Part shown: positions 1 through 53,026 of the stretch, one piece after another | Layout of the letters: each line of letters opens with the position of its first letter | How positions within the stretch are numbered: position 1 is the first letter of the stretch | Virus record (IMG/VR): IMGVR_UViG_3300025141_000080 | Location: 1 to 63,648 of that record | Source: a virus | Strand: one strand, 5' to 3' | Length of the DNA stretch: 63,648 nt | The notes under the pieces: model-generated | What the model saw: only the letters and a program-made list of their open reading frames with translations | What the model was told of the DNA's origin: nothing | Database searches by the model: none | Translations under genes and position numbers: made by a program

Positions 1-99
1 CCAACCATCATCCAAATACTAAAGTCCAGATTCCAACAAGTGTCAATGACAGGTAAACCTGATTATGTTGAGTTAGGTAAAGGATACGATTTAAACTAA
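1..99 (+). CDS. C-terminal end of an unidentified upstream gene (partial)
   Basis: An open frame runs from the first base of the window to a TAA at 97-99, giving 32 residues that end in GKGYDLN. The start lies outside the window. The next gene begins 35 bases later on the same strand, with only an A-rich leader between, so this is probably the preceding member of the same structural operon. Thirty-two residues show no recognisable domain and no function is assigned. That it is coding is inferred from the absence of stops and its position directly upstream of a virion gene. Confidence 0.55.
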   Translation, partial: PTIIQILKSRFQQVSMTGKPDYVELGKGYDLN

Positions 100-134
100 A
101 AAGAGTAGTTAGATAATTATTAAAAAAGATATAA

Positions 135-33898: not shown

Positions 33899-36800
33899 AT
33901 GGCAAATGGATATAACAATATAGGAAGTGGTAGTGATACTTTTGGTGATAAGTTAGTTGGACAACAATTTACTGACGCAACCGCCCAATTTACACTAGGA
34001 AACTTTGGTATCACGTCTGGAGCAAAGGCAAAAGATAGTCGTGAATTTTCGTTTGGGAATTTTTCTGAACCAATCACTCTATCGACTTTAAATTTTACAT
34101 CCACAGAAGAAGCACGAAAAGCTGCTAGTAACAGTTTAGAGGTATTCATTAATTATGATAGAAGCAAGGTTAGTAACTTTGTTTTATATGGTTCATTAAG
34201 AGATAGATTACGAGTTGCAGTTAATAATGTAATTAAGAATTTTCCTGCCGCATTAGTCTTCACTAAACTAAGAAAAAACTTCCTTACCGGTAATACTGCT
34301 ACCAATATAGTATTTGACGCGATAGAAAACGAAACTACACTTAATCTAGAATTATTAAATGTAGACAATCCTTTTAGTATAGATTTTACTAAAATAGGTA
34401 AGGTTTATACGGACCCAGACGCTAACCCTCTTAGAAATTTAACTCAGTTATACGGTAAATATTCTCTTTTTATTCGTGACCAAGAATACCCATTAACTTT
34501 CATAACCCCAACTACCGGAAATACTGTCACTGACACTCTTTCTATAGAAGTATACGGTAATCCTTTTACCGGACAAACTGCTACTACTGAGAATTTCTAT
34601 ATAAAACCTAATACCCATGAAACAGAAGAAATATTTAATAAATTAGAAGATGTTGAGAAATTTTTAATAGAGAGAGACACTGTTCCTATCTATACTTCTA
34701 AATTTGATATTCCTTCCCAAACGGATAGTGGACAATTTGTTCAAAACACAACCTCAATTACTTGGCCGTCCACTAATAATTGGAATTTACAAATTACAGG
34801 AGCCTCTTTTAATGTTTATTTAAGTAAATTATTAGATGTTGCAGATACTTTTGACGCTTATAAAACTAATCTAGTTTCGAGATTTTTAACTACCGCATCC
34901 TTTAAAGAATTTGATACCGAAGATGAGAAAGTAGACCAGATACTTAAGATTTATGGTAGAAGTTTTGATAATATAAAAACATACATTGAAGGATTAGCTT
35001 ACATGACTAATGTAACTTATGATTCTAAAAACAATATACCTAATGAGATACTAAGTAATTTTGCTCATACATTAGGATGGAAAACACCGTCTGCAATAGA
35101 AACAGAAGGATTCTTAGAATCTATTTTAAAAAGAGGAAATTCCGAATATGCGGGAGAAGCACAAACTAAAACACCTACGGAACTTAATAGTGAGTTATAC
35201 CGAAGATTGTTAGTTAACACCTCTTATCTCTTTAAAACAAAGGGAACCAGAAAAGGTATTGAGTTTTTATTAAGATTTGTCGGGGCACCGGAAGCACTAA
35301 TAGAATTTAATGAGCACGTTTATGTGGCAGGACAGAAAATCAATATGAATAAGTTCAACCAACGAATGGGAGTCATATCTGGTGGCTCTTATGTTGAAGA
35401 AACAATTATTAATAATCAATTCTTTTCTGCGGCTACACCTACTTTTCCACCCGTAATAGTTACGGGATATACTTTTGGTACTCAACCAGTAACAATAGAT
35501 ACTACTGTTACCCGAGCACAATTTCCAGTAAGCTCCCAAGGGTACCCTTTAGCTCCTACATTTAATGAAAATGGATTTTTCCAAGCAGGTGCAGGATGGT
35601 TTGAAGAAACTGTGGAACATAGAGGAAAAGAGATGGTTAATTTGGCCACTTCCGTTTTTACGGGAAACACACCAAATGTTAAAACCAAACTCAACAAATT
35701 TAGTTATGGTGAACCATATTTAGATTTATATAGAAATTTTCCAGATACAAATCTAGGGTTTGATATAATAAGGACTACAGATAATAAAAAATCATGGGTT
35801 TATAAAGAAGATAAACAAAGTAAAAGATTATATACATTTGAGGATAGGGGTACTAGATATTTTACCACTGACGAAAGATTAGTTATAAATGTAAAAAATG
35901 TTGATTTATTTTTAAATGTAGGTCAAGGATTAACCTGGGACGTGTGGAATATGTCTAATAAATTTGGTTGTCCTTTTGGTAAAGACCCATTAGGTGCACC
36001 TTATCCAGACGTAGATGGTCCTGACTGGACTCAAATTCAGATAGACGCATCTAAAATGCCGTTTGTAGAATTTTCGGACCAATTCTGGCAAATACTCATT
36101 AATGTAAAAAATAGACAAACTATAGATGATGGACACGCAGGTGGGTATCCTACCTTATTAAGTATTTATCTTGACTACCTTAATAGTGATGTTGCTTGTG
36201 GAATCCCTAGTAATAAGTACACCTACCAAAAAATGATTGATTATATAGAAGGAATAGGTGATTACTGGATAAGATTAGTGGAACAATTTGTTCCAGCTAC
36301 CACTATCTGGCAAGGAGGAACTAGATTTGAAAATTCAGAATTTCATAGATACAAATACGCTTATAAACATGAACCATTATGTGATGATTTAGAGTGTTTT
36401 GGTTCATTTATAGAATGTACTGGACCTAATTTTAATCAACAATTAGTTGACGGTTTCTTAGGGTGTCAAGGTACTATTTTTAGTGGAGCAACTTGGTCTA
36501 ATAGATTAACATTAGGTGGCACAGTATATAACGGAAGTGCTGGTGGAGGAATTTATTACTCCAGTACAACTCTGTCGGACATTCCTAGCACCCAAAATTG
36601 GTTAGACGACGTAATTTCTATACTAAGTGGTATAACCCAAGATATTAGTGACCCTAATAATTCTTTGACCTGGTATGTGTTTGACGATACACCTACTGAC
36701 CCAGATTTACCACCTATAGATAATCCTAAAACTATAATAGTCCAAGGCCCGTGTAGTGGAGGGACAGATATGTGGAATGCTTTAAACGGTCCAGACCCAC

Positions 36801-39800
36801 ATTACTTTTCATTAGAAACATGTTTAGATATGGATGTTCAGAGAACGTCTTCTATTGGTGCAAATACGGATATCTTTGTATATTATGACAGTACATCTAT
36901 GGGTCAGGCAGTTGCAAATAATGCAAAAACTACAATATCAACCTGGACTGCTGGTATGACAGACTGGACAGGAAATTTATATCATATTGTTACTAAGAAT
37001 GAAAGATGGTTATGTAATGTCCAATATCCGTGGACAGGACAAATGAACTGTAGAGGACCATTTAACAATAACTTCAATGACGGAATTACATGGGGGGAAT
37101 GGTCGAATTTCTGTGAATTACCAAATCCAAATTCAGACCCTTATGGACTACCTATGACTATAAGCACTACAAACGATTACAATGCCTCTTACGGTAATGT
37201 CGCGGGTAGTATTATTGGTTGGACCGGAGGAAGTAAAGATGTTTTAAATATTGTTTTACAAGATGAGACGGAGTTCATGTATCATGGAGCTCGTCGTAAT
37301 ATTGGACCAAGTGGTGATGTACTGTGTTATGGATTTGCAAGTAGTAGTACGGGGCCAGGATTTGGGGTTAATGCTCCAGTAGGTGATGTAGAAGACTGGA
37401 ATTCTGGAGCTAATAGTAATTGGGCCATCAGAGGTCCTGCTATTAGAATAGGAATAACCAATCAAGGTTGTCCACCATACCCCATGAAGATTCCTGGATA
37501 TCCAAATACTTTTGAAAATCCATTTAATTCTAATTATGTACAGCCTGGTTCCGCCTATGGAGGTGTATCTGCAGGTGCAGATGGTGTAGGAAATGCATCT
37601 GGACATGGACTAGGTGGAGGATTTCCACGATTTACAGTTTTAAATAGTGGAAGTAATGCCTACCCAATTGGTGGTGGATTGGCTCCTGACCCTACGATTA
37701 CGAGTGTTATTCAACCTACCATCCCATATTCTGCAGATTTTTATACATTTAGACATATATACACTAATTTTGATAACTTTAAGGCGTTTGTTTATCCGAT
37801 TGTTAGAGATAGTCAAGCGGCTAGAACTTCTTTTCCATTACACGTATATGGAGCAATGGAAAGAAATACTGTAGGTCTAGACGTTTTAAAAGTAAACCCA
37901 ACAGTTGACGCTTTAGGTGGTAGTTTCTCTGCTATAACAAAATATAACCCATATTCAGGATTAACGATGTATAAATCCTTATATCCGGACCAAGCTACTA
38001 GTGCAGTTACAATAATTAATACAATTGCTTCTACAGTAACAGGGTATACCGCTACCACATGTTTTATAAGTGGTGCAACTTGGGGACCAGGAACACCAGC
38101 ACTCGTAACTAACCAACCTTCAGGTATTTTTGAATATAGTTGTGATGCAAATGGAGACCCCGCCACCGGAACGGTATGGACTGCTAATTTTGACAGTGCT
38201 GTTGCAGATTTACAAATAAATTATACTGGCATGACAGCAGATGGTAGAAATGAATCAATCTACTCTCTAACCGGTTCTACACCAGAATTTGCAGTTAATA
38301 CTGGAGCTACCGCAAATCAGTTAGCTTGTCAAAATCCACCTAAATGTTTTTATTCAGCGGATACCACATATAAAGTTTATGTGTCTAACGCAGGATTAGC
38401 ACCTGATTTAGGACCAAACGTTCTTACTGCTACTACTAGTATAGAATTAGGAAGATTAGAAATGAATTGTAGTGGATTAGATTCAGGTTTAGAATCTTTT
38501 GGATGGGGATGGCAGCATAATTTAGGACCTACAGGAACAAGAACGCAGACCACCCAACCTAACGGGTGTTCCTTCACTAACGTAACTCAAAACGGAGTGT
38601 CTATAGCTAACAGTAATCCAACCTACTCGAATTCTTCAGGTGTAGTTGGACCATTAGCTGGTAATGATAGTGCATTTTTTACTGGTGATGTGTTCCTTAA
38701 TGACTTAAACAGCTTTTTATCAGGAGATACAGTAGGAGCTGTAACTGGATGTACCATATGTCTACCTACATGTACAGCGGGATGTGAAGATGCAGAAACA
38801 TGGAGCCCCACAAGACAATACTCACAAGGAGATATGGTATTAGGGTATCATGGAGATTGTTTTATAATGATTGAAATGGGCCCATCGTATACCAGCAATC
38901 CAGAATATAATTGGAATAGTGAAAATCCAGGAATAACTAAACAATGGAATAGACTTAATGATGGAATGGGAATTCCATTTCTAGGGGGTAATAATTTTAG
39001 ACCAGCGGATGATTGTACCGATTTTGAAGAAGTGATAATACCAGAAAATCCAGGTGGAACTGGTAACACCACGACAACTTCACCACCTATTTTTAAAGAC
39101 GGTATTTTTAATGTTGGAGGTCAAGATTGTTTTGAATCAAGATACTCCCCTTGTTTAGCTGGAGCTAACCCTTCTAGTAACATATGTGCATGTGATGCAA
39201 TAGATGATAATACTGAATTTGAATATAGAGTTGGTAATATTGTTTGTTGCCCAGAAGGCACATCTGGATACATTGCTGGGGTTAAGTGGATACTTCAAGC
39301 ACAGTCCACAACTGTTCCACCATATAATTGTGGACAACAAATTTTTAGTTACGACTCTTTTTGTGAAAATTATGTTGAAGGGAGTACACCTACTGACGGA
39401 TGCTGGACACCATGTACTGAAATGGTAGCAATGCTTCCGAGCATTACTAGTCAAAATGAATTAAGGAAAGAAACCTTATCATTAATAGTTAATGACCCAG
39501 AAGACCCTTGTAACCCTACTGTTACAGGACAGGGAACATCAGGAAGTCTACCTACTGGCGGAGATGGTGGTAGAGAAGACCCAATTGACCCAGAACCGGG
39601 GTTATGTAATTGCATCTCTAATAATACAACCACATTAGAGTTAAATATGACTCAAATTCCTTGGGGAGATATACCACCTGCGGTTATGAATTTTAGAATG
39701 GGTAATAGTAATCCAGATTACGGTGATACCGATTTAGCTAATAGTTTATATCACGGACCCAATAAATCAAATTGTTATCAAGCTAACATGTCCTTATGTT

Positions 39801-42800
39801 GTTTAACTGACTATTTTAGATTACATGCACATATGTTTGTAAAAGGGTCTACTAATGGGGATGGTTATGTTGAGACTAGAACTTTTGAAATGACCGGTAT
39901 AGATGATAACACTATAGTACAGATTTATTTCATACAAGGGTCAGTTGACTCTGTTGCTAGTCCCCAGAATGATAAGTTATTTTTACATATTCCTACTAGT
40001 GATTTTAATTCCCAAGTTACTAGTGGAACATATGGTACACCTGGTACTTTTGTAAATGCAGGTCAAATTGCGGGAGCAGCGGGATGGTCTACTAATGTAA
40101 ATCAAATTACCATACAAATTCCACAGAATCAACCTAACGCAGGCATTACCGGACCATATATTTTAGAAAGGTTATTTAATGATGTTAACAATGGTTCCAG
40201 CACCTATTTAACTAAAGGAGGTGTTACATGGGATACCTCCCTATCCTCACCAACAGAAGATGATGGATATTGGGAAATGGGGCCACCTGCAATTGCAGAT
40301 GGAGCCATATCAAATTATCAGGTAGGTACTAGTGTTAATAATAATTCTATCACTAAGGTTCTATCGGATGCAAATGGTGGGCCTAATATTAGTACAAATC
40401 CTACCCAAGATTGGCGTACTTATTCATTTAATATAGAATTACAGTTAGACTGCCAAGGTTCTACACCTAATATGGTTGAAATTATACCTCTGGTGCCAGC
40501 TTATAGTGTAGGTACAACCATTAGTACTAGTTCTGCTGTACCGGTTACACAACCATGTCCCGTTAATCCAGCGGCTCTTCCTTTACCAAGAATGGGAATA
40601 GTGCAACCCGAATCCGTCAGTATGTCTACATTACAAGCGAGTGGTGGTGCTGTACGTATAACATTACAAGACATCGTAAACCAAAGCGGAGAGAATTTAT
40701 CACCGTATAATTATGAGATTACCCAATCCCAAGTTTATATTGTAGAAAACACACCCAATTTCAATACTAGTAATGAAATAGAATATAATAACCCAGCTCT
40801 TGCAACCCCGGATGGTGTTAATACTTTTAGACCAACATATAAAACTTTTATAGATAGTAGTGGAAATGAAGTAACTCAACTTAATTGGTTACAAGAAAAA
40901 GCAGATAATTTAGGAGATGGTAAATTAGTTATAAGTTTTGTTGACGAACCACAGAGAGATTCTTTTGAAAGAAATTTAAAAATAAAACAAATAGGTAATG
41001 TAGAAACTACCACAACATCCAACGGGATATACGTCCCACCTGCTAGAGGAGCGAGCAGTACTAGAACCCGTAATAGTATTCCAGGATATAAGACAGAAAA
41101 AATAAAAGATACATATGGAGGTTTAAGTGATTGGATAGTAAGGTCTGTTGGACCTAATTTATTTGGTGACACTAAGGTTATCTATAATGAAAACGGCACA
41201 TTTAATAGTTTCGAAATTAGAAAATCACCAAAAACTCGACAAAAAGTAGGTTGGGCACCAATAGATAATACCAGTAAAGAAATTTTTGCTTCTACTTATA
41301 GTTCGTGGGGAGAATTTAAAGAAGCATTTAAAACCACATCTATAAGTGGTATAACTACGGATGCATATACAGGCTATACTAATTTTAGTGCTTATACCGA
41401 TAGTAGAGGCAATTGTTTGTCTTCAGATTTAGTATTTGATTTACACTTTCCATTTTCTGCATTTACAGGAACAACGGTAGTACCAGTTTACAGACATTAT
41501 TCAGGTGATACATTAATGCCCCAAAGAGTTATTACTGATAGTGAGGGTGTTGACGAATTAGACCCACGAAACCGAAGTTATACATATATTGGAACCAAAG
41601 ACCGTGGTATAACACCAATGATTTTACCACCAGTTTTAGCATATAATGACGGTCCTATTAATTTACCACGTGGACCTGAGAATTATTTATACTATGAAGT
41701 TCCAGAAACAACATCGTATAGATTCCAATACAAAGCTTGTTTATATTTTAATTATGAAGATACGGGTTATTGTGATTACTTAAACAATTATAGAAACTTA
41801 ACCCAAGGAACATTCCCATCAAATGATATGGAATACAAGCAATTAATAAATTCTGCATTAATTTATCAAGGAGGTCCTCTAGATGACAGTAATCTACAAT
41901 ATGCAGAAGGTACAATCGCCAAAACATACACCAACACAGCAAAGTATGGTAGGAAAAACACTCCTACCTTTGGGTTTAATAGTGGTGAAGGTATCCAAAA
42001 CTTTAAAGCCAGAGTTTACTTGGAGAATACTTTATCTGGAACCAGTTCGGCAGTAACTATGACTGAATTTACTGTAGGATTAAACGAATTAAGTTCGCCG
42101 GACGCTAATGAATACTTAACGTTGGAAATCCTACCAACAGATAATGAAACTAATTACTATAATTGTAGTGGAAGTACCAATATCTTTACTAGAAAATTTG
42201 ATATCTATTTGGATAGTGATGTGGTAAACCTTACTAAAGGAGATGTGGTTAAACTAAAATTAGAGACACAATTTATGTGTACTACTAAAAATATTAATAC
42301 AGGATACACTAGTAATATTAAATTATCTTTAGGACAAGACACTTATAGTACTACCGATTGGGTTTACAAACCGTGGTATAGAATTACTCATTACCCATCT
42401 ACCGCTATTACTACAACACAGAAATTTTATTGGAATCCTATAAAAAAAGCAAGAGCAGCAACTTATGTAAGTGGAGGTACCGCAATAAGTGTGGCTGAAA
42501 CAGGAACTTTATCATTAGTGGGAAGAAGAAAGTCTAGTGAGGTAGTATACTCTAATAATGAATTAAACACTGCAAGATTTAATAACTTAACTTTCTTGGA
42601 TATTCCTACTAAAGACTATGTGGGACCATTAACTCTAATTCCTACAACTAAACCTACGAATTATTGGGTAAAGGCAATCGAAAATAGGGAAGACGAAACA
42701 CTTACTCCACGTATTACAGACTACTATATTCAGGCAGACACTATGGTACAAAGAGATTGTATCGGATATAATTGTGATTCTGTTTATTGGAATGTACCAA

Positions 42801-43387
42801 TCTCTGACCACAATCAAATAAACGACCCATTCTCCAATCCACGAAATACTCTTATAGTTCAGAATAGAGTTAGGGTAAAAGGAAAGAATGACGTTACTAC
42901 GGTATATAATGCTTATAATCCTACAGTAGATAACGAAATTTCTAATTATAATGTAACTCCTAACCCAAGAACTACTTTTGATACTATTGAGATTGTAAGT
43001 CAAAATTGTAAGACAGATGAAGATAAAACAATATACTTTAAAGATAATTCACTTATCATTGATGGAAAAGTAGTGGATATTCAATCTAATAGTTATGATA
43101 TTTCTACACCTAGTAATAATCCTTTACGAAAAGAATACTGTAAATGTGGGAGTGATACCTATATAGAAGTAAATCCGAGTTCATTAGAAGGATGTCTTAC
43201 ATGGTGTTGTGCAAATGCACCTAAGAAGGGATATACCAATGATATTTACGGGTGTGCAGAAACAACTGTTACCCAGAGAGAATTTATAAATAAATTAGGT
43301 CCATCATCTATTAATTATGGAGGAGCGACTGATAAACCTAAAGGCGTGGTGTTAGGTAAAGACCCTAAACAACCTAAAATAATATAA
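33899..43387 (+). CDS. Giant 3162-residue tail/baseplate protein
   Basis: The largest gene in the window, 9.5 kb. Residues about 330-480 (EDEKVDQILKIYGRSFDNIKTYIEG, then YRRLLVNTSYLFKTKGTRKG and IEFLLRFVGAPEALIEF) resemble the P2 gpI-type tail-protein segment of large phages, which ties fibres to the baseplate. A vWA-like module starts at DIFVYYDSTSM (Asp997) and resumes at FVYPIVRDSQAARTSFPLHVYGA (1297), ending near GCTICLPTC. Residues about 1635-1690 (W-SPTRQYSQGDMVLGYHGDCF) look like a chitin-binding CBM5/12-type fold. Later parts are Thr/Gly/Asn-rich and Cys-containing. It is probably a fibre-bearing baseplate protein; the C-terminal half is unidentified. It is followed three bases later by the SprB-like protein. 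Confidence 0.75.
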   Translation: MANGYNNIGSGSDTFGDKLVGQQFTDATAQFTLGNFGITSGAKAKDSREFSFGNFSEPITLSTLNFTSTEEARKAASNSLEVFINYDRSKVSNFVLYGSLRDRLRVAVNNVIKNFPAALVFTKLRKNFLTGNTATNIVFDAIENETTLNLELLNVDNPFSIDFTKIGKVYTDPDANPLRNLTQLYGKYSLFIRDQEYPLTFITPTTGNTVTDTLSIEVYGNPFTGQTATTENFYIKPNTHETEEIFNKLEDVEKFLIERDTVPIYTSKFDIPSQTDSGQFVQNTTSITWPSTNNWNLQITGASFNVYLSKLLDVADTFDAYKTNLVSRFLTTASFKEFDTEDEKVDQILKIYGRSFDNIKTYIEGLAYMTNVTYDSKNNIPNEILSNFAHTLGWKTPSAIETEGFLESILKRGNSEYAGEAQTKTPTELNSELYRRLLVNTSYLFKTKGTRKGIEFLLRFVGAPEALIEFNEHVYVAGQKINMNKFNQRMGVISGGSYVEETIINNQFFSAATPTFPPVIVTGYTFGTQPVTIDTTVTRAQFPVSSQGYPLAPTFNENGFFQAGAGWFEETVEHRGKEMVNLATSVFTGNTPNVKTKLNKFSYGEPYLDLYRNFPDTNLGFDIIRTTDNKKSWVYKEDKQSKRLYTFEDRGTRYFTTDERLVINVKNVDLFLNVGQGLTWDVWNMSNKFGCPFGKDPLGAPYPDVDGPDWTQIQIDASKMPFVEFSDQFWQILINVKNRQTIDDGHAGGYPTLLSIYLDYLNSDVACGIPSNKYTYQKMIDYIEGIGDYWIRLVEQFVPATTIWQGGTRFENSEFHRYKYAYKHEPLCDDLECFGSFIECTGPNFNQQLVDGFLGCQGTIFSGATWSNRLTLGGTVYNGSAGGGIYYSSTTLSDIPSTQNWLDDVISILSGITQDISDPNNSLTWYVFDDTPTDPDLPPIDNPKTIIVQGPCSGGTDMWNALNGPDPHYFSLETCLDMDVQRTSSIGANTDIFVYYDSTSMGQAVANNAKTTISTWTAGMTDWTGNLYHIVTKNERWLCNVQYPWTGQMNCRGPFNNNFNDGITWGEWSNFCELPNPNSDPYGLPMTISTTNDYNASYGNVAGSIIGWTGGSKDVLNIVLQDETEFMYHGARRNIGPSGDVLCYGFASSSTGPGFGVNAPVGDVEDWNSGANSNWAIRGPAIRIGITNQGCPPYPMKIPGYPNTFENPFNSNYVQPGSAYGGVSAGADGVGNASGHGLGGGFPRFTVLNSGSNAYPIGGGLAPDPTITSVIQPTIPYSADFYTFRHIYTNFDNFKAFVYPIVRDSQAARTSFPLHVYGAMERNTVGLDVLKVNPTVDALGGSFSAITKYNPYSGLTMYKSLYPDQATSAVTIINTIASTVTGYTATTCFISGATWGPGTPALVTNQPSGIFEYSCDANGDPATGTVWTANFDSAVADLQINYTGMTADGRNESIYSLTGSTPEFAVNTGATANQLACQNPPKCFYSADTTYKVYVSNAGLAPDLGPNVLTATTSIELGRLEMNCSGLDSGLESFGWGWQHNLGPTGTRTQTTQPNGCSFTNVTQNGVSIANSNPTYSNSSGVVGPLAGNDSAFFTGDVFLNDLNSFLSGDTVGAVTGCTICLPTCTAGCEDAETWSPTRQYSQGDMVLGYHGDCFIMIEMGPSYTSNPEYNWNSENPGITKQWNRLNDGMGIPFLGGNNFRPADDCTDFEEVIIPENPGGTGNTTTTSPPIFKDGIFNVGGQDCFESRYSPCLAGANPSSNICACDAIDDNTEFEYRVGNIVCCPEGTSGYIAGVKWILQAQSTTVPPYNCGQQIFSYDSFCENYVEGSTPTDGCWTPCTEMVAMLPSITSQNELRKETLSLIVNDPEDPCNPTVTGQGTSGSLPTGGDGGREDPIDPEPGLCNCISNNTTTLELNMTQIPWGDIPPAVMNFRMGNSNPDYGDTDLANSLYHGPNKSNCYQANMSLCCLTDYFRLHAHMFVKGSTNGDGYVETRTFEMTGIDDNTIVQIYFIQGSVDSVASPQNDKLFLHIPTSDFNSQVTSGTYGTPGTFVNAGQIAGAAGWSTNVNQITIQIPQNQPNAGITGPYILERLFNDVNNGSSTYLTKGGVTWDTSLSSPTEDDGYWEMGPPAIADGAISNYQVGTSVNNNSITKVLSDANGGPNISTNPTQDWRTYSFNIELQLDCQGSTPNMVEIIPLVPAYSVGTTISTSSAVPVTQPCPVNPAALPLPRMGIVQPESVSMSTLQASGGAVRITLQDIVNQSGENLSPYNYEITQSQVYIVENTPNFNTSNEIEYNNPALATPDGVNTFRPTYKTFIDSSGNEVTQLNWLQEKADNLGDGKLVISFVDEPQRDSFERNLKIKQIGNVETTTTSNGIYVPPARGASSTRTRNSIPGYKTEKIKDTYGGLSDWIVRSVGPNLFGDTKVIYNENGTFNSFEIRKSPKTRQKVGWAPIDNTSKEIFASTYSSWGEFKEAFKTTSISGITTDAYTGYTNFSAYTDSRGNCLSSDLVFDLHFPFSAFTGTTVVPVYRHYSGDTLMPQRVITDSEGVDELDPRNRSYTYIGTKDRGITPMILPPVLAYNDGPINLPRGPENYLYYEVPETTSYRFQYKACLYFNYEDTGYCDYLNNYRNLTQGTFPSNDMEYKQLINSALIYQGGPLDDSNLQYAEGTIAKTYTNTAKYGRKNTPTFGFNSGEGIQNFKARVYLENTLSGTSSAVTMTEFTVGLNELSSPDANEYLTLEILPTDNETNYYNCSGSTNIFTRKFDIYLDSDVVNLTKGDVVKLKLETQFMCTTKNINTGYTSNIKLSLGQDTYSTTDWVYKPWYRITHYPSTAITTTQKFYWNPIKKARAATYVSGGTAISVAETGTLSLVGRRKSSEVVYSNNELNTARFNNLTFLDIPTKDYVGPLTLIPTTKPTNYWVKAIENREDETLTPRITDYYIQADTMVQRDCIGYNCDSVYWNVPISDHNQINDPFSNPRNTLIVQNRVRVKGKNDVTTVYNAYNPTVDNEISNYNVTPNPRTTFDTIEIVSQNCKTDEDKTIYFKDNSLIIDGKVVDIQSNSYDISTPSNNPLRKEYCKCGSDTYIEVNPSSLEGCLTWCCANAPKKGYTNDIYGCAETTVTQREFINKLGPSSINYGGATDKPKGVVLGKDPKQPKII

Positions 43388-43390
43388 TTA

Positions 43391-46300
43391 ATGTCCACAA
43401 CAAGTACTTACATACCAGGAGCTCCCTTTATTAGGTCTTATAATGTTTCTCCAACAACACAAGGCGCTAATAATGGTAGTATACTTAATGTGACTATCAC
43501 CGGAGGAACCCCACCTTATAGTGTGGTATGGAATGGAGGAACTCCTCCTGGGTCATATACTACTACTGGTTTGACGTTAACTAGTTTAGCAAGTGCTTCT
43601 TATAGTGGTACGGTAACAGACACCCAATCATCTGCATCTACTACAGTTATAGAAGTACCTGCAACCCCTATAGTGGCCTTTACAGCTTCTACTACGGTGA
43701 GTGCTTGTACTAACAACATCAATAAATTTTGTCAAGTAACCGTGTCCGCTTTTACCCATACTCAATGGCCATTTTATTATGAACTATATAAAGATGGTGA
43801 TTTATTTGAGACTTATGTGGGACGAGAGGTTGGTGATGAGTTTCATGTATTTGATGATTTACCACAAGGATTTTATAGTTTAACCGCTTATGATGGAAAT
43901 ATGGTAAAATATAGAAGCACACCAATAGAAGGAGTTGGTGGATGTGTTGGTGGAGAAATTGCTACTTCATATACAGGATTGTCGGCTGAATATCTATTTA
44001 AAAATTATGATTACTATCAACCCTTCTCTAAAGGTTTTATACAATTTATAAATGGTAGAGGGCCCGGAGCTATTACTGGTGCTACTGTTAATTTTCCTAC
44101 AGGTTTATTAAAAAATGGTACAATAGATGTGGACAATCCATATGCATGGTTCTACACAGGTGATACCGGTAATAGAAAAACAGATTCTACATTTAACTGG
44201 TATATGGGAGTTTCTGCAGCAACTACACAAGAAGGTGTTGATATAGGACCAACAGCTTTGGTATCAACAATAGGGAGTAACAATACAGAAAGTGGAAAAT
44301 TTTATTGGAATCCTTTAATAAATAAATTTGTAGGGTTCGATTGTCTAGATGATACTACTTTTGGGTGGGTTACATTTAACCCATCAACACATAATGGAAG
44401 AAACAACCCAGTTGCTTCTCATTATTATACAGGAAACACATTCACATCTCTAAATCTTAATTCTGCCACATTATATCCCACTGTAACTGGTTTAACTACA
44501 AGTACAACAGGCACTAGTGTTATGTCTTCAGCTTTTATTAATGAATCACGAAACCGATTCACCTCAGCAATTAATAATATCTATCCTGTAGGGATGGTCT
44601 CCCAATGTGAATACACAAATTATGTACATGAAGTGACAATAAATTCTACAGATGGTGATGATGACACCATAGGGTTAATATTAGCAGCGATGAGGGATAA
44701 TGATGGATTATTTGGTCCACTTGGAGCATCATATGAGTTAACTATGTTTTTTCGTAACTCGAGTGTAACAGGAGCTGTTGGAGTAAGATATCAAAACATG
44801 TACGGTAATGCATACGCTTTTACAGGAAACACAAACCCAATTAGCGACTGTTCCCAAGACTCTAAGTGCCCCACACAACCATCGGATATTTTAAGCACCA
44901 CACTTATATCCAATGACATAACTAAAAGTCCTTTTAACGCAACAGCTTATAATATTCAAGGAAGTGTAAGAGTAAGGGTAGAAAGACATGGAGCACTGGG
45001 AGAAAACTTTAAAATACAAATGACCGACCAATTTGGTATAGCAGGAATTCCATTAGGAAGTACAGTAGGTTATAACCCAGCATTTGAGATTAATTTTTCT
45101 TTATTAGATAAGAGTACATGGTCCGGAAATACTGCAAGTGCAGCTAGCTACTCCAACAGTCAAGAGCTACAGAAATTTTTAGGAGCACAAAGAGTAGGGT
45201 ACTACACATCTTCACAAGAGGATAGTAATTGGTACCATATTACATTTACCGGAACTCAAACAACTGTTACTTCAGAACTAGAAGAAGTGGGACCTAATAC
45301 CTCACAAACCTTTGACTTATATTCTTCAGACACAGTAGGATTAGAAATGACAGATACTGTTGGGGTAGATTATAGTAAATCATTTGGCAATGCGGAGGTA
45401 GGAAAGGCCGAAGTACCTAGAATACAACCTACTGTCAAAGTAGAAATGCAAACCACCGAATTTCCGGAAGTAAAAATGACCGGTGCAACTAAAATAGCGG
45501 ATATCACAGAAGATTATACTGTACTCACAGATTCTATTATGACAGGACTAACTAATTGTATAAGTTTTAATTTTGAATGGACTACAAATACCCTAGATAT
45601 GATTAATGGAAATATGTATGCAAAATATAGTATACACCATTACCTCCCAACAGAAAACGAGTTCTCGACTTCCCCTATTTTTACCAGAATTTTTGACAGA
45701 CCAACCGATGTTACTGATTCGTATGTTGGTAGGAAAATAATAGGAAAAAAAATAAGTGTTAGTGATTGTGTGGAAACCCATAAACTTGACCTAGGAGATA
45801 ATTACCAGTTTTTAATAAAACCTAGTTTCATTTATACCGATAAACTAGAAAATATACAAACCACTTCGTGTAACACATATCAACCTTTTACTGCGATGAC
45901 CCACCAAACATGGTATGATAATTTAGATTTAAACGATACTCCATCTAATCAATATGGGATATATAATAAAGAAACTGATTTTTATTTTATAGCACCGTCC
46001 ACACCACCGGAAGCAAATGTAGCAACTAGTAATTTTACATATAGTGATAGTACAGGAAATATAAGATTATACAATCAACAGATAGAGGTCGCTTCGGGAA
46101 GTACGACCGGTACCACAGAAGTACCTTTATTAACTTCTGGTAAAACATATACCGTCGTATTAGACTATGTGACCGCTGGAAGTATACAGATTACATTGAA
46201 TGGATTAACCCTATTTCAAGCTTCTGACAATACTTGGAATGATGGAGATTTTTATTTTAACGGAAGTCAAGTTGTAACTTTTCCACCGGATGTGTTAGAA

Positions 46301-47008
46301 GAGTTTGATGTTATGAATTTATATTATATTCCTGGGGCCACATCCCAATCATATTATATAGAAAATTATACTATTCCTTCCCCAATTCCTACAGGAACTA
46401 CAGCAACTGACGGTAGTGCGAATAGTTTTTATACTAATTTATACTATTATTTCTATCAAACTAAATTAAATCCTAGAGGTAGTATAGGAATGACTTTAAA
46501 CGGAACGAGTTTATTAGATGGCACAGATTTTGTGAGAGTTTCAGGAAGAACATTACAATTTTTAACTTTAACTGAACCAGGAGGAATACAGGAGAATGAT
46601 ATATTAACATTATTTTATGTTACTGATATCACCTTAAGAGGTGTAGCTAATAGACAGATACCAGAGGTAAGTGTAGAATATAACTCTAATCCTATTTTTA
46701 ATGAAAAATTAATACTAGATGTTATAGACTTATCAGGAAATACAGTTCATACGGATACAAAACTATTATCTAAAAATGTATTCGGTATTCAAACTGTAGT
46801 CTTAAACGCTAAAGTACCTAAACCTGGAAACTATGAGTACGAAATAAAATCGGTAAGAGAGTATAAACTATTAAATGGTAAAACTCTTACAAAAATGAAT
46901 AAAACTTCTAGGCATCCATTTGAGATGCCAGCGTCTGTTTTTTATGATGCATCAGGAGCTTTTATAGAAAATAATAATAATACAACTTCTCCTTCCCAGT
47001 ATACATAA
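43391..47008 (+). CDS. Tail fibre-like protein with SprB-type N-terminal domain
   Basis: A 1205-residue protein. Residues about 18-92 match the SprB/PKD-like repeat layout of Bacteroidota surface adhesins: NNGSILNVTITGGTPPYSVVWNGG, then a short hydrophobic LTSL and YSGTVTD. The remainder is Thr/Ser/Asn-rich beta structure. About 850-1100 contains repeated FYFNG, TVVLDYVTAGSIQITLNG and YYIPG/FYVTD motifs suggestive of stacked beta domains. A C-terminal region (VSVEYNSNPIFNEKLILDV, then HPFEMPASVFYDAS) resembles a fibre end. SprB is the gliding adhesin of Flavobacterium, so the domain may mimic or bind host surface structures. Function is inferred. Confidence 0.68.
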   Translation: MSTTSTYIPGAPFIRSYNVSPTTQGANNGSILNVTITGGTPPYSVVWNGGTPPGSYTTTGLTLTSLASASYSGTVTDTQSSASTTVIEVPATPIVAFTASTTVSACTNNINKFCQVTVSAFTHTQWPFYYELYKDGDLFETYVGREVGDEFHVFDDLPQGFYSLTAYDGNMVKYRSTPIEGVGGCVGGEIATSYTGLSAEYLFKNYDYYQPFSKGFIQFINGRGPGAITGATVNFPTGLLKNGTIDVDNPYAWFYTGDTGNRKTDSTFNWYMGVSAATTQEGVDIGPTALVSTIGSNNTESGKFYWNPLINKFVGFDCLDDTTFGWVTFNPSTHNGRNNPVASHYYTGNTFTSLNLNSATLYPTVTGLTTSTTGTSVMSSAFINESRNRFTSAINNIYPVGMVSQCEYTNYVHEVTINSTDGDDDTIGLILAAMRDNDGLFGPLGASYELTMFFRNSSVTGAVGVRYQNMYGNAYAFTGNTNPISDCSQDSKCPTQPSDILSTTLISNDITKSPFNATAYNIQGSVRVRVERHGALGENFKIQMTDQFGIAGIPLGSTVGYNPAFEINFSLLDKSTWSGNTASAASYSNSQELQKFLGAQRVGYYTSSQEDSNWYHITFTGTQTTVTSELEEVGPNTSQTFDLYSSDTVGLEMTDTVGVDYSKSFGNAEVGKAEVPRIQPTVKVEMQTTEFPEVKMTGATKIADITEDYTVLTDSIMTGLTNCISFNFEWTTNTLDMINGNMYAKYSIHHYLPTENEFSTSPIFTRIFDRPTDVTDSYVGRKIIGKKISVSDCVETHKLDLGDNYQFLIKPSFIYTDKLENIQTTSCNTYQPFTAMTHQTWYDNLDLNDTPSNQYGIYNKETDFYFIAPSTPPEANVATSNFTYSDSTGNIRLYNQQIEVASGSTTGTTEVPLLTSGKTYTVVLDYVTAGSIQITLNGLTLFQASDNTWNDGDFYFNGSQVVTFPPDVLEEFDVMNLYYIPGATSQSYYIENYTIPSPIPTGTTATDGSANSFYTNLYYYFYQTKLNPRGSIGMTLNGTSLLDGTDFVRVSGRTLQFLTLTEPGGIQENDILTLFYVTDITLRGVANRQIPEVSVEYNSNPIFNEKLILDVIDLSGNTVHTDTKLLSKNVFGIQTVVLNAKVPKPGNYEYEIKSVREYKLLNGKTLTKMNKTSRHPFEMPASVFYDASGAFIENNNNTTSPSQYT

Positions 47009-47020
47009 AAGGAGAATTAT

Positions 47021-47030
47021 AATATTTATA
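47021..47030 (+). promoter_or_regulatory. AATATTTATA motif before the 818-residue tail gene
   Basis: AATATTTATA lies 24 bases upstream of the ATG at 47055 in a 46-base gap, the largest within the tail-fibre run up to that point. It is the same core as at 12191, 16712, 20482, 20515 and 22886. Proposed as a promoter element by recurrence. Confidence 0.35.
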
Positions 47031-47054
47031 AAATAAAACTAAAATAAAAACAAA

Positions 47055-49511
47055 ATGGGAACAGGTTATATATTAAAACAAGGAAGTTCAGGTCTACTAA
47101 GTGTTAGATTAACTGATGCCGGCAGGAAAAAATTGTCACAAGGACAATTAACTCTTTCACTATTCCAACTAGGAGATAGTGAAATGTGTTACGATTGTTA
47201 TACTGACGTGTTGAATCAAACACCAGGTATATTTGTAACAGAACCAAAATGGAACGCACAAAATATTTCTAATTCTTCGTGTGAACTTAATAAAATGAAT
47301 GTAAAGTATCCGGTACCAATACTTGAAACGAGTACTGGAGCAACGTATGGTCTGTTAACTCCTGCCCACACAGAAAATGCGGTTTATAATAGAGCTAGAA
47401 CTAGAGGATTTTTTAGTGGTAACACTACAGTAGGTTTTTCAGCAATCACAAATGGTTCATATATGCACTCCAGTAATTGGTGTTTCCCACTAACCGGAAT
47501 GACTGGAGGTTCACAAATGTTACTCTATAGTGGTGCTTGTAATACAATAAATTATAACCCACAAGTTGGGGATTTAATAATGGTACAATACCAAAACCCA
47601 TTTGTTGGTAATTTCTTAAATCCTGGATGTAATAGTGGGACTCTCGATATACCTTTAAATTATCCTGCTCCTTATTTATTTTATAATGTAGTTTCTGGTG
47701 TTACAAGTGGTAGTACAGCCACCGCAATTAACATAACAGTTGATAGGGATTTACCTAATTTTAATTGGTATCACTTAAACTCTATGTTTACCGATGCTAT
47801 AAGTGCTAATACTGGTTGTGCGAAAGTAATAGTTTATCCAGCTGGAGGAATGTTAAATTTCTATGGTGCGGATACCCCAATTCCATATTGGTCTCCAGGT
47901 TCTTTATCATTTGATAATAACTGTGATGTTTCGGTTAAAGATGTGAATGTATGGAATATGAACATCAACTGGACTCAATGGGATGGAAATACAATCAATT
48001 CTGGAACGGTTGCTGGTGTAAATAGCACCACTTATGAAGATGTTAATGGTTATGGTTCTACCGGTTATTGTAGTACAAAAGAATATTTAGGTTATAATAG
48101 TGATGACGGTCAAACTGATAGTAATACTCAGGCGGATTATTATGGCTCAAATAATATCTTAGGGTATGAACCAGAATTATCCGGAACGTATGTTAGGGAT
48201 TCATTTGGTAAAATTAGAACAATTTTACCTTCTGAGCAAAGATGTATAGGTATTCTACACTACACCAACCAAACTATCTCTAATTTTTATGGTGAAAAAT
48301 TTGCATTAGAGTCAAACTATACTTTATTGAATGGTATAGGAGAAATGAGAAACTTTAAGATTCATATGCCAACATTAATGTGGCATAAAAAGAAAGGAGG
48401 AACTGAAGGTAGTGGTGATGGAACTGGAAAAGGAGATGAATGTACACTAGGCCAAACTTTTTATGTAAGTCCTCCTGGATTTACAGATAGTATATCTCAA
48501 TGTCAATTTGTTGCTTCTGTACCAAATTTAGATATGAACGAACCAGGTATTAGATACTATAATTTATGGGATGATAATTTAGCTACTACAAGTGGTGAAA
48601 CTTCTTTACCTAATAGAGTAGGTAAAGTATGGCCTGATTTACAAATTATAACTATAGATGACCAAGAATTAGTTGCTGCGATGTCTTATAAATCTAATAG
48701 AAATTGGACCTTACCTATGCCGAAATTAGAATTAATTCCAGCAGGGACTAATTGTTCAGGGTCAGTAATGGAAACTGGATTCTTTAATGGATTACCTAAC
48801 GCGGAAGTCTTACATTTTACTTATATGTTAGAAAGTACCTCTGGCTACACCTCAGGAATGCATTGTAATTATTACAACACAATTATTGGAGATACTTCAT
48901 CGGGAGCGAGAGATGTTACTGTTGCATTTGGACCGGAATTTCCATACATCCGTCCATATGATGATGACACATGTTCTTATTCTGGTACTGGGGTTCAAGT
49001 AGATAAATTGAAAGTTATTATGCAAAAAACTAGTTACGGTATAGCTCCTACTCCAGGTAGTTGGGTTGTAAATGACATAACTAGTCAGATAACTAATCAT
49101 ACTAGTGGTGCACCTATAACAGCAGGAGGATTAATTAATAGTAATTGTAGTTTCTATTTAAATTATGATGTGTATACTGGTGCAAGTACCTATACTCTTC
49201 ATGATTATATAAATGTTCCTTTAAATAACAACCAAGAACCAGGAGTCTTACAGTTTGGAGACGAATACTTTTTCTACGGTAACTTAGAAAGTGATATTAT
49301 GGCAACCATTTATGAAATGCGTTACAATATAGGGGTTAGTAGCAATCAATTTACCACATCAACCAACCCTACATGGTCCGTAACTGATAAAGTAAGAATA
49401 ACAGAAGTAGGGTTATATGACCAGTCAAAAGACTTAATGGCAATTGCAAAATTAAAAAGTCCACAAAAAAGAACAGGCGCTCAACAATTTGTTATTAAAA
49501 TAGATTATTAA
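47055..49511 (+). CDS. Tail fibre-family protein with shared N- and C-terminal motifs
   Basis: An 818-residue protein. The N-terminus (SGLLSVRLTDAGRKKLSQGQL, then LFQLGDSE) shares the LTxxGRxxL...F.LGD pattern with the proteins starting at 49521 and 53027, marking a paralogous attachment domain. The C-terminus (VRITEVGLYDQSKDLMAIAKL) matches the ITEIGLYD...AIAKP end of the protein at 55221, a motif typical of phage fibre and collar proteins. The middle is Gly/Asn/Tyr-rich, with a Lys/Gly spacer (HKKKGGTEGSGDGTGKGDEC). It is likely a fibre or fibre-adaptor subunit. The nine-base gap to the next paralogue implies co-expression. Confidence 0.68.
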   Translation: MGTGYILKQGSSGLLSVRLTDAGRKKLSQGQLTLSLFQLGDSEMCYDCYTDVLNQTPGIFVTEPKWNAQNISNSSCELNKMNVKYPVPILETSTGATYGLLTPAHTENAVYNRARTRGFFSGNTTVGFSAITNGSYMHSSNWCFPLTGMTGGSQMLLYSGACNTINYNPQVGDLIMVQYQNPFVGNFLNPGCNSGTLDIPLNYPAPYLFYNVVSGVTSGSTATAINITVDRDLPNFNWYHLNSMFTDAISANTGCAKVIVYPAGGMLNFYGADTPIPYWSPGSLSFDNNCDVSVKDVNVWNMNINWTQWDGNTINSGTVAGVNSTTYEDVNGYGSTGYCSTKEYLGYNSDDGQTDSNTQADYYGSNNILGYEPELSGTYVRDSFGKIRTILPSEQRCIGILHYTNQTISNFYGEKFALESNYTLLNGIGEMRNFKIHMPTLMWHKKKGGTEGSGDGTGKGDECTLGQTFYVSPPGFTDSISQCQFVASVPNLDMNEPGIRYYNLWDDNLATTSGETSLPNRVGKVWPDLQIITIDDQELVAAMSYKSNRNWTLPMPKLELIPAGTNCSGSVMETGFFNGLPNAEVLHFTYMLESTSGYTSGMHCNYYNTIIGDTSSGARDVTVAFGPEFPYIRPYDDDTCSYSGTGVQVDKLKVIMQKTSYGIAPTPGSWVVNDITSQITNHTSGAPITAGGLINSNCSFYLNYDVYTGASTYTLHDYINVPLNNNQEPGVLQFGDEYFFYGNLESDIMATIYEMRYNIGVSSNQFTTSTNPTWSVTDKVRITEVGLYDQSKDLMAIAKLKSPQKRTGAQQFVIKIDY

Positions 49512-49520
49512 TAATTTCAA

Positions 49521-52500
49521 ATGGGGTATTTAGATTTACAACGACTTAATACACTAGAACTTTTTCTTACCGACAAAGGAAAGGAACTAATGATGAGAGA
49601 AAACGGATTAGGTTTCGCCGACCTGTGTGTGCAGTTTTCTTTGGATGACCCCGATTATGATTATAGAAGAACTAGCTATGTTTGGGTAGATGGTATTTCA
49701 CCAAATCCTCCGGGACCTGGTGGTTGGTACCCAAACCCATATGGTAGTACTGAAACTCATTCGAATCACAGTTCAGGGCCGCAATGGTTTGAAGAACTAA
49801 GTAATAATAACCCATGTCGTTCATGTGATGGATGTAGTACACCATTATCAGGGGATTGTTGGTATGATATGCCCGATGTTAGAGGGTCTAGAGGAAGAAC
49901 TATTGTTAGTTGTCACCCAGTTACAGGAACAACTACAGGACTAACAAATTGTACTAATATTTATGCGTTTTATGATGCTACCTCAGTTTATCTCCAAGAT
50001 GCACAAGCGGCGAAAGTAGGGCTAACCCATTGGTTTAGTGGGGTGACGGCCTCAACAATTACAACCGCTAACCCTCATGGTTCATATACGGGTAAGTTAT
50101 TTCATATTCCGGTGTTTGGGGAAAGGTGGTTGAATACCGCTTATTATCCTTGGCATGGAGAACTAGATACAGTTGATTATAATGGACAGGGAAACAGCCT
50201 TAATAGTTTAGCTCTTGCGCCCCGCACACAACCCCTGGACCCAAACGGAGGACTCTATGACGGAACAGGAGTATATGCTTCAGCTGGAGTAACGGGATTA
50301 TATTTACATGTAGATAACTCACAAAACACAGGAAATTGGTCAGGATTCCAGGTTCTTCCTCCAGGAGCATTTGGAGAAACAGGAAATTTTGGGCAAGGTT
50401 CAAGAGCGGAATTTTTTGCAACAGGATGTACTCAAAATAGTGATGATTGCTTCTTCAACACCGGGATAATACATCAACTTCCATATGGTGTTAACCACCC
50501 CATCCCATGTGAAACCGAAGTTTGGCATACAGAGACTCTGCCCAATATCCTATACTCTGCTAATAGTACTACTACAGTATATAAAATGAAAGACGGCTCT
50601 TGGGGTACAGGAATGGAAACTTGGACCACTCAACCTTATATAAACAAATATGGATGGTGGGACTACCACACCAACCTACTTGCTGACTTCAGCATATATG
50701 TAAACGAGACTGTCCGATATAATACGATTACAGGGCTGACTAATCACGAACAGTATAATCTACCTGAGAATGTAGGCCCTCTAATTTGGGAGAGTGATGT
50801 GGGCAGTGGATGTAAACTTAATTGTTGTAATACGAGAGAAAACTCCGGAACATTTAACTACCAACTTAGTGGTGGTACAGGAGGGCCTTTAGGAACAGTC
50901 GTAACTGGAGGAACTAGAATGGAAAGTGAATCATTTAGTAAAGATGATGATTCATTAGAAAATACCGGAAGTCAATTTGGTTGCATGGAGTGTAATCCAT
51001 TTGATAATTTTGTACCATATGAAACAGGACATACCTACAGTATTCAAGGGGCTTTAGGTCTTATGGAAGCTTTTGAAGAACCGGATGGAACAGTTACCTC
51101 CGTAACTGGAAACTGTGGTGTTCGTATATGGTATTTGTCTGGTCCTTGTAAAAAATATAAAGGAGGGGATAAAAATGTAATGGTTGTAAGTATAGTCGAC
51201 GAAGTTAGTTCTATGACTTGCAATGCGACTTCATGGGGAGGAGTCCTTCCTTTGGATTATAAAAACGTTTATAATGGTAATGGAATCTCGGACTACACAT
51301 TGAACAATGACTTTGACCAATTCTCTCCTGGTGCTTCGATGCCACTAAGTCGACAAAAACGTAGAGGATACCACGCAAAAGGAGTATACACCCCAAGCCC
51401 AAGTACATGTCCAGACCCTATGAATGGTCCTGGTTGTACCGGAAATGCAGGTTATCGTGGACCTTATGGGTGTGATGGTACCGCAGCAGATAATTACCCA
51501 ACTCAGTGTGAGATAGTTTCAGGAGTGCATCAAAATGACTGGTCAGCTGGAGGACATCCACAACCAACAATGGATTTTAAATTTGCACAAGATTTATTTA
51601 TGAGGACTCTTCCTTTTTATAATAGTTTTATAGGCTTTTTATACCCTGTAGTAAAAAATCTCGCTAATGCAAGGGCTGAATTTGCTTTACATGCTTATGG
51701 TGCTATAGTAGGAACAACGGTGGACCCCGCAGATTTAATAGAGAACCAAACGGTAGAATCTCAAGGAGGGACTTTCTCCGCAATTACTAAGTCTAACCCA
51801 TATAGTCAAATAAACCCAATTGTATATAATAGACCTACAGTTCCTTTTTCACCAACTAGTTCACCTGCATGGTATAGTGGACAACAATTATACCCTAATT
51901 CATTTGTTCCTCCCTTCCATGTTACACATGGTGTTCAACCGTCAGCCCTAGGAGCTCCTGGTTTAGGTAACTATAATTGGGGAGTTAATCTGTCGGTAGG
52001 GTGTTCAGTTAACGCTCCTTCAGCTGTTGGTTGTTCTAGTTGTAATATATGTTGTAGTTCGGGAGATATATTTTCTGGAGGAACATTTAATAATGACTTA
52101 ACTGAATTTATAAAAGGTGGAGCTTTTAAGATTATTACTACCACCACTGGGTGTACCGAGTGTCAATGTTTACCAGCTGTATTTAGAAGTAATACAGGAC
52201 CACCAATTGTAATTGAGGATGAGGGATGTCCATGTCCTGGTGGAGGATTTGACCCTATATGTTGTATAGGCCCTAGTGGATGTCCATGTGGAGATGGTAG
52301 TTATAGTCCAAGTTGTTGTCCGGACCCAGAAGGACCTGGAGAAAGTATTTGTGGTCCTGCTGCAAGTATCAGTGGGGGACAGGGAGAAACACCATCTACT
52401 GGTGGGGGACAACCAAGCGGAGGAATTGGTGAGGGATTAACACCAAATGGAGGGTTTAGGACTACATCCAACATGAGTGCACCAGTTAGTAACGCTTCTT

Positions 52501-52958
52501 TCCGAGAAAACTTAAATATTCAAAACAATGTTAACTTTAATGTAAACTTACATCAGTTCGTCTATATGGAAAACGGAGAACAAAAGATAGATTATGATAT
52601 TGAATTTGCAAGCACATCCACAGCAAATGGACAAATTATAAAAGAGAATGAAGCATTATTCTATTGGAAAATTGATAACGGAATTATTTCATATGACCCA
52701 AAAGGCAATCCAACCACTCAACCATGTACTTCACTAGAGTGGGCTGCATTAAATCAAAGATATACCGCGAGAGGAGCATATCCTTTTGTGTTCTTAAATT
52801 CTTATAGGAATGGAGACCCCGCCTATTGGAAATATAATAAAGAAGAGTATTGTATTACTTTAGGGGTACATAAGGATAATCAAGTAATGATGGTTACAAA
52901 AAGAATAAGAATTACGGGGGATAATACCTTTGGTTGGCAGTTAAAAATGCTAACATAA
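49521..52958 (+). CDS. Tail fibre-family protein with vWA-like module
   Basis: An 1145-residue protein. The N-terminus (LELFLTDKGKELMM, then FSLDDPDYDYR) is paralogous to its neighbours. A vWA-like module begins at NIYAFYDATSV (Asp152), continues through KLFHIPVFGERWLNTAYYPWHG, and after a long insertion resumes at FLYPVVKNLANARAEFALHAYGA (706) and ends near CTECQCLP. The same three blocks in the same order occur in the 3162-residue protein. A Cys/Gly/Pro-rich segment (GCPCPGGG, CCIGPSGCPCGDG) and a Gly/Ser linker precede a C-terminal domain with HQFVYMENGEQKIDYDIEF. A fibre or adhesin role is inferred; the MIDAS-like DxTS suggests a metal ion. Followed by a 68-base gap. Confidence 0.7.
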   Translation: MGYLDLQRLNTLELFLTDKGKELMMRENGLGFADLCVQFSLDDPDYDYRRTSYVWVDGISPNPPGPGGWYPNPYGSTETHSNHSSGPQWFEELSNNNPCRSCDGCSTPLSGDCWYDMPDVRGSRGRTIVSCHPVTGTTTGLTNCTNIYAFYDATSVYLQDAQAAKVGLTHWFSGVTASTITTANPHGSYTGKLFHIPVFGERWLNTAYYPWHGELDTVDYNGQGNSLNSLALAPRTQPLDPNGGLYDGTGVYASAGVTGLYLHVDNSQNTGNWSGFQVLPPGAFGETGNFGQGSRAEFFATGCTQNSDDCFFNTGIIHQLPYGVNHPIPCETEVWHTETLPNILYSANSTTTVYKMKDGSWGTGMETWTTQPYINKYGWWDYHTNLLADFSIYVNETVRYNTITGLTNHEQYNLPENVGPLIWESDVGSGCKLNCCNTRENSGTFNYQLSGGTGGPLGTVVTGGTRMESESFSKDDDSLENTGSQFGCMECNPFDNFVPYETGHTYSIQGALGLMEAFEEPDGTVTSVTGNCGVRIWYLSGPCKKYKGGDKNVMVVSIVDEVSSMTCNATSWGGVLPLDYKNVYNGNGISDYTLNNDFDQFSPGASMPLSRQKRRGYHAKGVYTPSPSTCPDPMNGPGCTGNAGYRGPYGCDGTAADNYPTQCEIVSGVHQNDWSAGGHPQPTMDFKFAQDLFMRTLPFYNSFIGFLYPVVKNLANARAEFALHAYGAIVGTTVDPADLIENQTVESQGGTFSAITKSNPYSQINPIVYNRPTVPFSPTSSPAWYSGQQLYPNSFVPPFHVTHGVQPSALGAPGLGNYNWGVNLSVGCSVNAPSAVGCSSCNICCSSGDIFSGGTFNNDLTEFIKGGAFKIITTTTGCTECQCLPAVFRSNTGPPIVIEDEGCPCPGGGFDPICCIGPSGCPCGDGSYSPSCCPDPEGPGESICGPAASISGGQGETPSTGGGQPSGGIGEGLTPNGGFRTTSNMSAPVSNASFRENLNIQNNVNFNVNLHQFVYMENGEQKIDYDIEFASTSTANGQIIKENEALFYWKIDNGIISYDPKGNPTTQPCTSLEWAALNQRYTARGAYPFVFLNSYRNGDPAYWKYNKEEYCITLGVHKDNQVMMVTKRIRITGDNTFGWQLKMLT

Positions 52959-53026
52959 TAATTAATTATGGTTTACATTCAGGAATTGGAATTTAAAATA
53001 ATTATATAATATAAAAAGAAAGTAAA

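Follow-up and report, generated by a model that had tools for sequence, protein, structure and literature searches.

The record of an uncultured tailed phage analysed here (IMG/VR IMGVR_UViG_3300025141_000080, 63,648 bases; this whole stretch is called the window) encodes two giant proteins with similar segments, which raises the question of whether these segments form one domain, what its fold is and what it would do for the virus. A preliminary description, made from the sequence alone, had proposed a variable von Willebrand factor A (vWA)-like adhesion domain grafted into two fibre proteins. Our analysis indicates that both proteins carry a divergent vWA-fold domain, which is probably displayed on the tail or baseplate and binds a host-surface ligand; we give this reading as a whole a probability of about 0.55.

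The module shared by the two proteins

Both open reading frames were present, at 33899-43387 (3162 amino acids, protein A) and 49521-52958 (1145 amino acids, protein B). Comparison of the two proteins by BLASTP showed that residues 1272-1353 of protein A matched residues 681-762 of protein B with 43% identity (E 5e-14), and that residues 990-1050 matched residues 145-216 with 35% identity (E 2e-9). The third block, 1593-1621 with 850-881, was weak by itself (E 0.04); we regard it as real because homologues of both proteins also contain all three blocks, and their order was the same in every full-length aligned homologue. The three collinear blocks described earlier were borne out in this way, with Asp997 and Asp152 where they had been placed, and that account had missed two more: a strand with Asp-Glu at its end (KDVLNIVLQDE, 1113-1123 in protein A; KNVMVVSIVDE, 551-561 in protein B) and a GG..NPY block (NPTVDALGG...NPYS, 1333-1354; NQTVESQGG...NPYS, 742-763).

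The same module, with the blocks in the same order, was found in the gp043-type virion structural protein of Cellulophaga phages phi17:2 and phi4:1 (PHROG 37948), with an E-value of 3e-13 when the first, independent block hidden Markov model (HMM) was used and of 8e-49 after an iteration that included it. This protein of 2289 amino acids shares the FDTTSM and FIDES motifs with the family, has a single compact copy, is otherwise unrelated in sequence and bears no vWA annotation. The short first block alone had given a weak hint of Cellulophaga phages (E 0.3), which the HMM later confirmed.

Predicted fold

A compact homologue of 333 amino acids was modelled with AlphaFold from 19 sequences (predicted local distance difference test, pLDDT, 73.5; predicted template modelling score, pTM, 0.74). 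Its best VIA-align matches were the A1 domain of von Willebrand factor (vWF; Z 8.4, root-mean-square deviation 3.4, 159 residues aligned), Sec23 (Z 8.3) and integrin beta8 (Z 8.2); Cachd1, PilB and MERIT40 followed among the high-scoring rows, and with few exceptions the best 50 chains were vWA. In the model of module A of the window, the core blocks had a pLDDT of 75-88 and the core elements were ordered as in the compact model; the overall pLDDT was 46 and the model was poor outside the core, so that the insertions are given no fold here. All of its 50 listed VIA-align matches (Z 7.3-8.3) were chains which, judged by title, have the vWA fold. Integrin I and I-like domains and Rpn10 were also among the matches of the two models. 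Both models predict a Rossmann-like core with strands and helices in vWA order, at moderate Z values, and the weight of the assignment lies on the uniformly vWA list of matches rather than on Z alone. The earlier vWA guess, followed up by structure prediction and fold search, was largely right. The outcomes named beforehand as refuting it, a fold lacking a Rossmann-like vWA core or an Asp-x-Thr-Ser away from a strand end, did not arise: in the model, the first core strand ends in this motif. According to these models, the module is very probably a divergent vWA-fold domain.

The putative metal site

In the model of module A, Asp997 (Asp43 of the modelled fragment) was the final residue of strand 37-43, and Asp1122 (Asp168 of the fragment) was located at the end of the next core strand, 160-169. 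The model would place Asp997 and its counterpart Asp152 at loop 1, and Asp1122 and its counterpart Asp560 at loop 3, of a metal ion-dependent adhesion site (MIDAS), where they would supply acidic ligands. Alignment of 49 modules led us to correct the proposed DxSxS motif to D-x-[T/S]-S, in which the next residue is mostly Met, Thr, Leu or Val, and to add a second Asp after a later strand. This Asp, after strand D, was kept in 44 of 48 modules, both window copies included, and it was absent from every pattern used to fetch homologues.

The only canonical motif among the relatives was the DRSGS of Flavobacterium phage FpV4 gp29 (PHROG 15100 segment), which was found at the predicted place. This protein matched the phi17:2 gp043 module over 265 residues (E 4e-10) and is unlike the family in that DRSGS is kept and an Asn replaces the second Asp (VNEA). 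When the family profile was aligned with gp29 by hhalign, a one-residue gap fell between the Thr and the Ser of the motif; the family may have arisen from a DxSGS form through the loss of one residue. A putative metal site is probably present in most members of the family.

The module resembles vWF A1 and the integrin alpha-I and beta I-like domains in its predicted order of strands and helices, in the Asp residues found after strands A and D at the C-terminal edge and in its loop insertions near the metal site. It differs from them in having D-x-[T/S]-S rather than DxSxS, no recognisable Thr in loop 2, insertions of up to hundreds of residues and no detectable sequence similarity.

Insertions in the module

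The preliminary description had placed one insertion of very different length between the first and second blocks; the strong difference in length stood, and at least three insertion points were found instead of one. The segment after the second strand was of 60 and 330 amino acids in the two window copies, that after the Asp-Glu strand of 142 and 110, and that preceding the last helix of 232 and 80. Across the alignment, the segments after strands B, D, E and F spanned 29-330, 25-142, 6-82 and 47-232 residues, respectively, the first of these also holding the helix 2/3 region, and the blocks that span helix-to-strand loops differed by only 9-11 residues.

The insertions were also less conserved than the core. 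Identity was 30-40% in the insertions versus 40-60% in the core between pairs of A modules, 32-34% versus 43-60% between pairs of B modules, and 13-19% versus 30-52% between modules A and B of the window; for the insertion between strands B and D of module B, mean identity among B proteins was 34% versus 52-60% in the adjoining core. The expectation that the insertions vary more than the blocks among homologues therefore held, above all for length. What these comparisons indicate is variability, not selection for diversity. No DNA repeat pairing suggestive of a diversity-generating retroelement was found within 33899-53000, and no search for a reverse transcriptase was made.

The parallel strands of a vWA fold have their C-terminal ends on the MIDAS side. 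Since the insertions start at these ends, most insertion points would lie on the metal face. In integrin beta I-like domains, the specificity loop is an insertion near the metal site. About 100 residues of the module A insertion (1373-1473) were also found in an unrelated protein of 1089 amino acids at locus L035 (G006, 56-3325) of another phage, which suggests that pieces of the insertions also move.

Distribution and history of the module

About ten viral contigs carried homologues of both proteins in synteny. The scan with the module alignment gave 49 loci, including unrelated proteins that carry one or two copies; tandem copies occurred at L140, L142, L143, L150 and L153, one unrelated protein had collagen-like repeats and another, judged by eye, an SprB-like N-terminus. 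Neither cells nor prophages yielded a copy in the genome scan with the patterns used, and named phages yielded no tblastn match to the full-length proteins; a single-sequence scan with the module A region was likewise empty. The sole significant match in the viral structure library was A0A7S9SUN3, an uncharacterised protein of virus NIOZ-UU157 (E 7e-6, 20% identity over 319 columns).

The module was absent from some proteins and present in others of a different kind. At L011, the B protein was of 425 amino acids, with its ends intact and exactly the module absent. At L046 and L048, another segment occupied the site of module A, and their B-type proteins (L116, L117) retained a divergent copy. 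The A-type module was found inside other proteins at L124 and L129. An extra domain of about 260 residues was inserted directly before module A at L028, L029 and L032.

A tree of 43 core modules showed that the B modules were monophyletic (support 100), that the A modules grouped with those of L124 and L129 (support 93) and that A and B together formed a further group (support 73). Because the tree keeps them apart, the A and B copies point to an inherited old duplication rather than to the recent graft into two proteins that had been proposed, and transfer is found elsewhere in the family. Vertical inheritance with occasional loss and transfer of the domain would have given its present spread.

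Protein context, virion location and host

The N-terminal part of protein A, of about 880 residues, belongs to a widespread protein found at 313 viral loci. In freshwater relatives, the whole protein is of 980-1015 amino acids and ends after this part; in the clade of the window, an extension of about 2000 residues follows, which begins close to the module. In Flavobacterium phage immuto and Microcystis phage Mel-JY01, a protein whose gene lies downstream of that for the baseplate wedge gave a weak BLASTP match to the N-terminal part. Gene order suggests that protein A is located near the baseplate. We also considered the N-terminal part as a gp7/gpI-type wedge protein, which no profile supported. 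The fibre label given earlier was an assumption, and protein A is better described as a protein of the baseplate region that is widespread and here extended at its C-terminus. Relatives of the module proteins are annotated as virion structural proteins.

The named relatives infect Cellulophaga and Flavobacterium, and the protein of 1205 amino acids encoded between the two module proteins (43391-47008) had a Pfam match to SprB repeats, a weak one (E 0.0026), as well as a tail fibre match in PHROG (E 4e-8). The relatives and the SprB-repeat match make a Bacteroidota host likely.

Proposed function and alternative explanations

An old duplication would have produced the A and B copies, and each protein would display one divergent vWA-fold copy on the tail or baseplate. 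The loops at the C-terminal strand ends would hold a divalent metal, a protein or glycan ligand would be gripped at this face, and the insertions would set ligand specificity. Metal-site vWA domains are a widespread means of adhesion in surface proteins of animals and bacteria. Taken together, the probable metal site, the exchangeability of the domain and its variable metal-face loops are best explained by adhesion, and we put host adhesion as the function of the domain at about even odds. The support for an exposed, host-binding protein comes from gene order, the PHROG annotations of relatives and the behaviour of the domain. The wider proposal is tentative: a phage-specific vWA family with a metal site shortened by one residue, present in one or two copies per giant virion protein in several phage lineages, would be an exchangeable host-adhesion module whose metal-face insertions determine specificity and diversify, and phage tails would thereby have an integrin-like means of recognition.

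Several observations weigh against a metal-binding vWA adhesion domain on the tail. The Z values of 7-8 are in the range that VIA-align deems common for unrelated models; by its own warning, a Z below 8 may reflect a widespread arrangement. With Foldseek alone, no PDB match was significant (best vWA-type E 0.044), and no Pfam VWA or PDB sequence match was found at permissive thresholds, where the searches were empty or gave chance matches (ferredoxins, through Cys alignment, at E about 1). The link by sequence to a bona fide vWA passes only through the DRSGS of FpV4 gp29, which itself has no Pfam match. The motif is one residue shorter than the canonical DxSxS, position +4 in the 49 aligned modules is hydrophobic, Thr or Asn instead of Ser, and the conservation seen for the first motif is partly built in, since the pattern of the locus search contains it. 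No loop-2 Thr, the third MIDAS ligand, could be identified, as the variable B-D region holds no conserved Thr. Both Asp residues were lost together in the two-sequence clade of L037 and L120 (=L044), and the second was lost in L043 and L123 and, judged by eye, in the L116 and L117 proteins, so that the metal would not be universal. The tail location, finally, comes from gene order only.

A serious rival, which we judge less likely, is that the vWA-fold domain acts during assembly as a structural joint, between the giant proteins themselves or between them and the baseplate, with any metal being structural only, on the model of the non-adhesive vWA domains of Sec23/24, Rpn10 and MoxR-vWA co-chaperone pairs. 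Sec23 and Rpn10 are indeed among the closest folds, both copies are within one virion gene cluster, and the clade without metal residues still keeps the domain. The vWA proteins described in jumbo phages are MoxR-vWA assembly co-chaperone pairs (PMC7824862) and that of archaeal tailed viruses is CobT-like (PMC8651126); these place the fold in tailed viruses, as here, whereas they work with an AAA+ partner and the domain described here is part of giant virion proteins. An assembly joint would, however, be expected to be more constant than a domain whose large insertions differ between close relatives, which is dispensable in L011 and replaced in the A proteins of L046 and L048, and which moves between unrelated proteins. 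No MoxR-type ATPase was recognised among the window proteins scanned, which cover part of the window, itself a fragment. Our search of open-licence papers found no vWA adhesion domain in phage fibres.

Two further explanations concern the fold and the likeness of the copies. The module could be a generic Rossmann-like alpha/beta domain, such as that of an enzyme, that resembles vWA and whose conserved Asp is catalytic or structural. The missing VWA profile match would fit this, as would the ranking of Foldseek alone, in which beta-N-hexosaminidase came first and lumazine synthase and TIM chains had similar weak E-values. After realignment, however, the best 50 matches were nearly all vWA for the compact model and all vWA for the window model, the FpV4 relative has its DxSGS where a vWA domain would have it, and inspection of the A and B alignments gave no conserved catalytic constellation of His, Cys or Lys, which makes such a domain improbable. 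Recent gene conversion, or copying between neighbouring genes, could also make A and B alike, as the copies are about 13 kb apart in one genome. This was rejected, with hardly any probability left to it, on the separation of A and B in the tree and the low identity of the window copies given above; no long DNA repeat joins the two genes. A divergent vWA-fold domain inherited from an old duplication is the explanation that we prefer.

Features of the two genes and neighbouring proteins

Table 1. Positions in the window of the two modules and of their conserved elements
Feature	Position	Strand	Evidence
Conserved N-terminal part of protein A (about residues 1-880)	33899..36538	+	N-terminal/module alignment, 313 viral loci
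vWA-like module A (residues 975-1625)	36821..38773	+	Alignment, HMM E 5e-92, AlphaFold model, VIA-align
Module A strand A, helix 1, strand B (990-1047)	36866..37039	+	BLASTP, alignment, model
Module A Asp997-Ser-Thr-Ser, end of strand A, MIDAS-like loop 1	36887..36898	+	Model strand 37-43, Asp = 43
Module A strand D ending in Asp1122-Glu1123, MIDAS-like loop 3	37235..37267	+	Model strand 160-169, Asp = 168
Module A helix and strand E (1272-1320, ...FVYPIV...FPLHVYGAM)	37712..37858	+	BLASTP E 5e-14 block, model
Module A GG..NPY block (1333-1354), probable strand F	37895..37960	+	Alignment
Module A insertion preceding last helix	37961..38692	+	47-232 amino acids among A proteins; model confidence very low
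Module A last helix, FLNDLNSFLSG	38693..38725	+	Alignment, model helix 644-654
Protein B N-terminal segment, common to neighbouring 558-residue protein	49521..49760	+	BLASTP E 3e-5
vWA-like module B (residues 131-885)	49911..52175	+	Alignment, HMM E 1e-101
Module B strand A, helix 1, strand B (145-213)	49953..50159	+	BLASTP, alignment
Module B Asp152-Ala-Thr-Ser, MIDAS-like loop 1	49974..49985	+	Motif alignment
Module B large insertion between strands B and D	50160..51170	+	239-330 amino acids among B proteins
Module B strand D ending in Asp560-Glu561	51171..51203	+	Alignment
Module B helix and strand E (681-729)	51561..51707	+	BLASTP
Module B GG..NPY block (742-763)	51744..51809	+	Alignment
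Module B last helix, FNNDLTEFIKG	52086..52118	+	Alignment

The N-terminal segment of protein B is also found at 53027-53300, in the protein of 558 amino acids that follows, which suggests one attachment sequence for both proteins. Two other proteins, of 818 (47055-49511) and 368 amino acids (55221-56327), have a common C-terminal motif that is also found in fibre-cluster proteins of Mel-JY01 and immuto. The protein of 796 amino acids at 30589-32979 contains 6.9% Cys and ends in GCTDPxAxNYNPxAxxDDGSC repeats, a motif that is also present at the N-terminus of the module-bearing L144 protein. Elsewhere in the window, a protein of 2194 amino acids (5579-12163) has an amidase domain (PF01510) at residues 1936-2071, a protein of 333 amino acids (60303-61304) combines a PHROG family of unknown function with a C-terminal match to phosphoheptose isomerase, and the tRNA-Cys predicted at 1753-1850, which lies within a long open reading frame of the same strand, is probably spurious.

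Significance

A vWA family located within giant virion proteins and missed by the Pfam VWA profile would be a concrete candidate for the attachment of large phages, with Asp997, Asp1122, Asp152, Asp560 and the loops as the candidate residues. The domain may thus be a means, so far unrecognised, by which these phages attach to their hosts, which are probably Bacteroidota.

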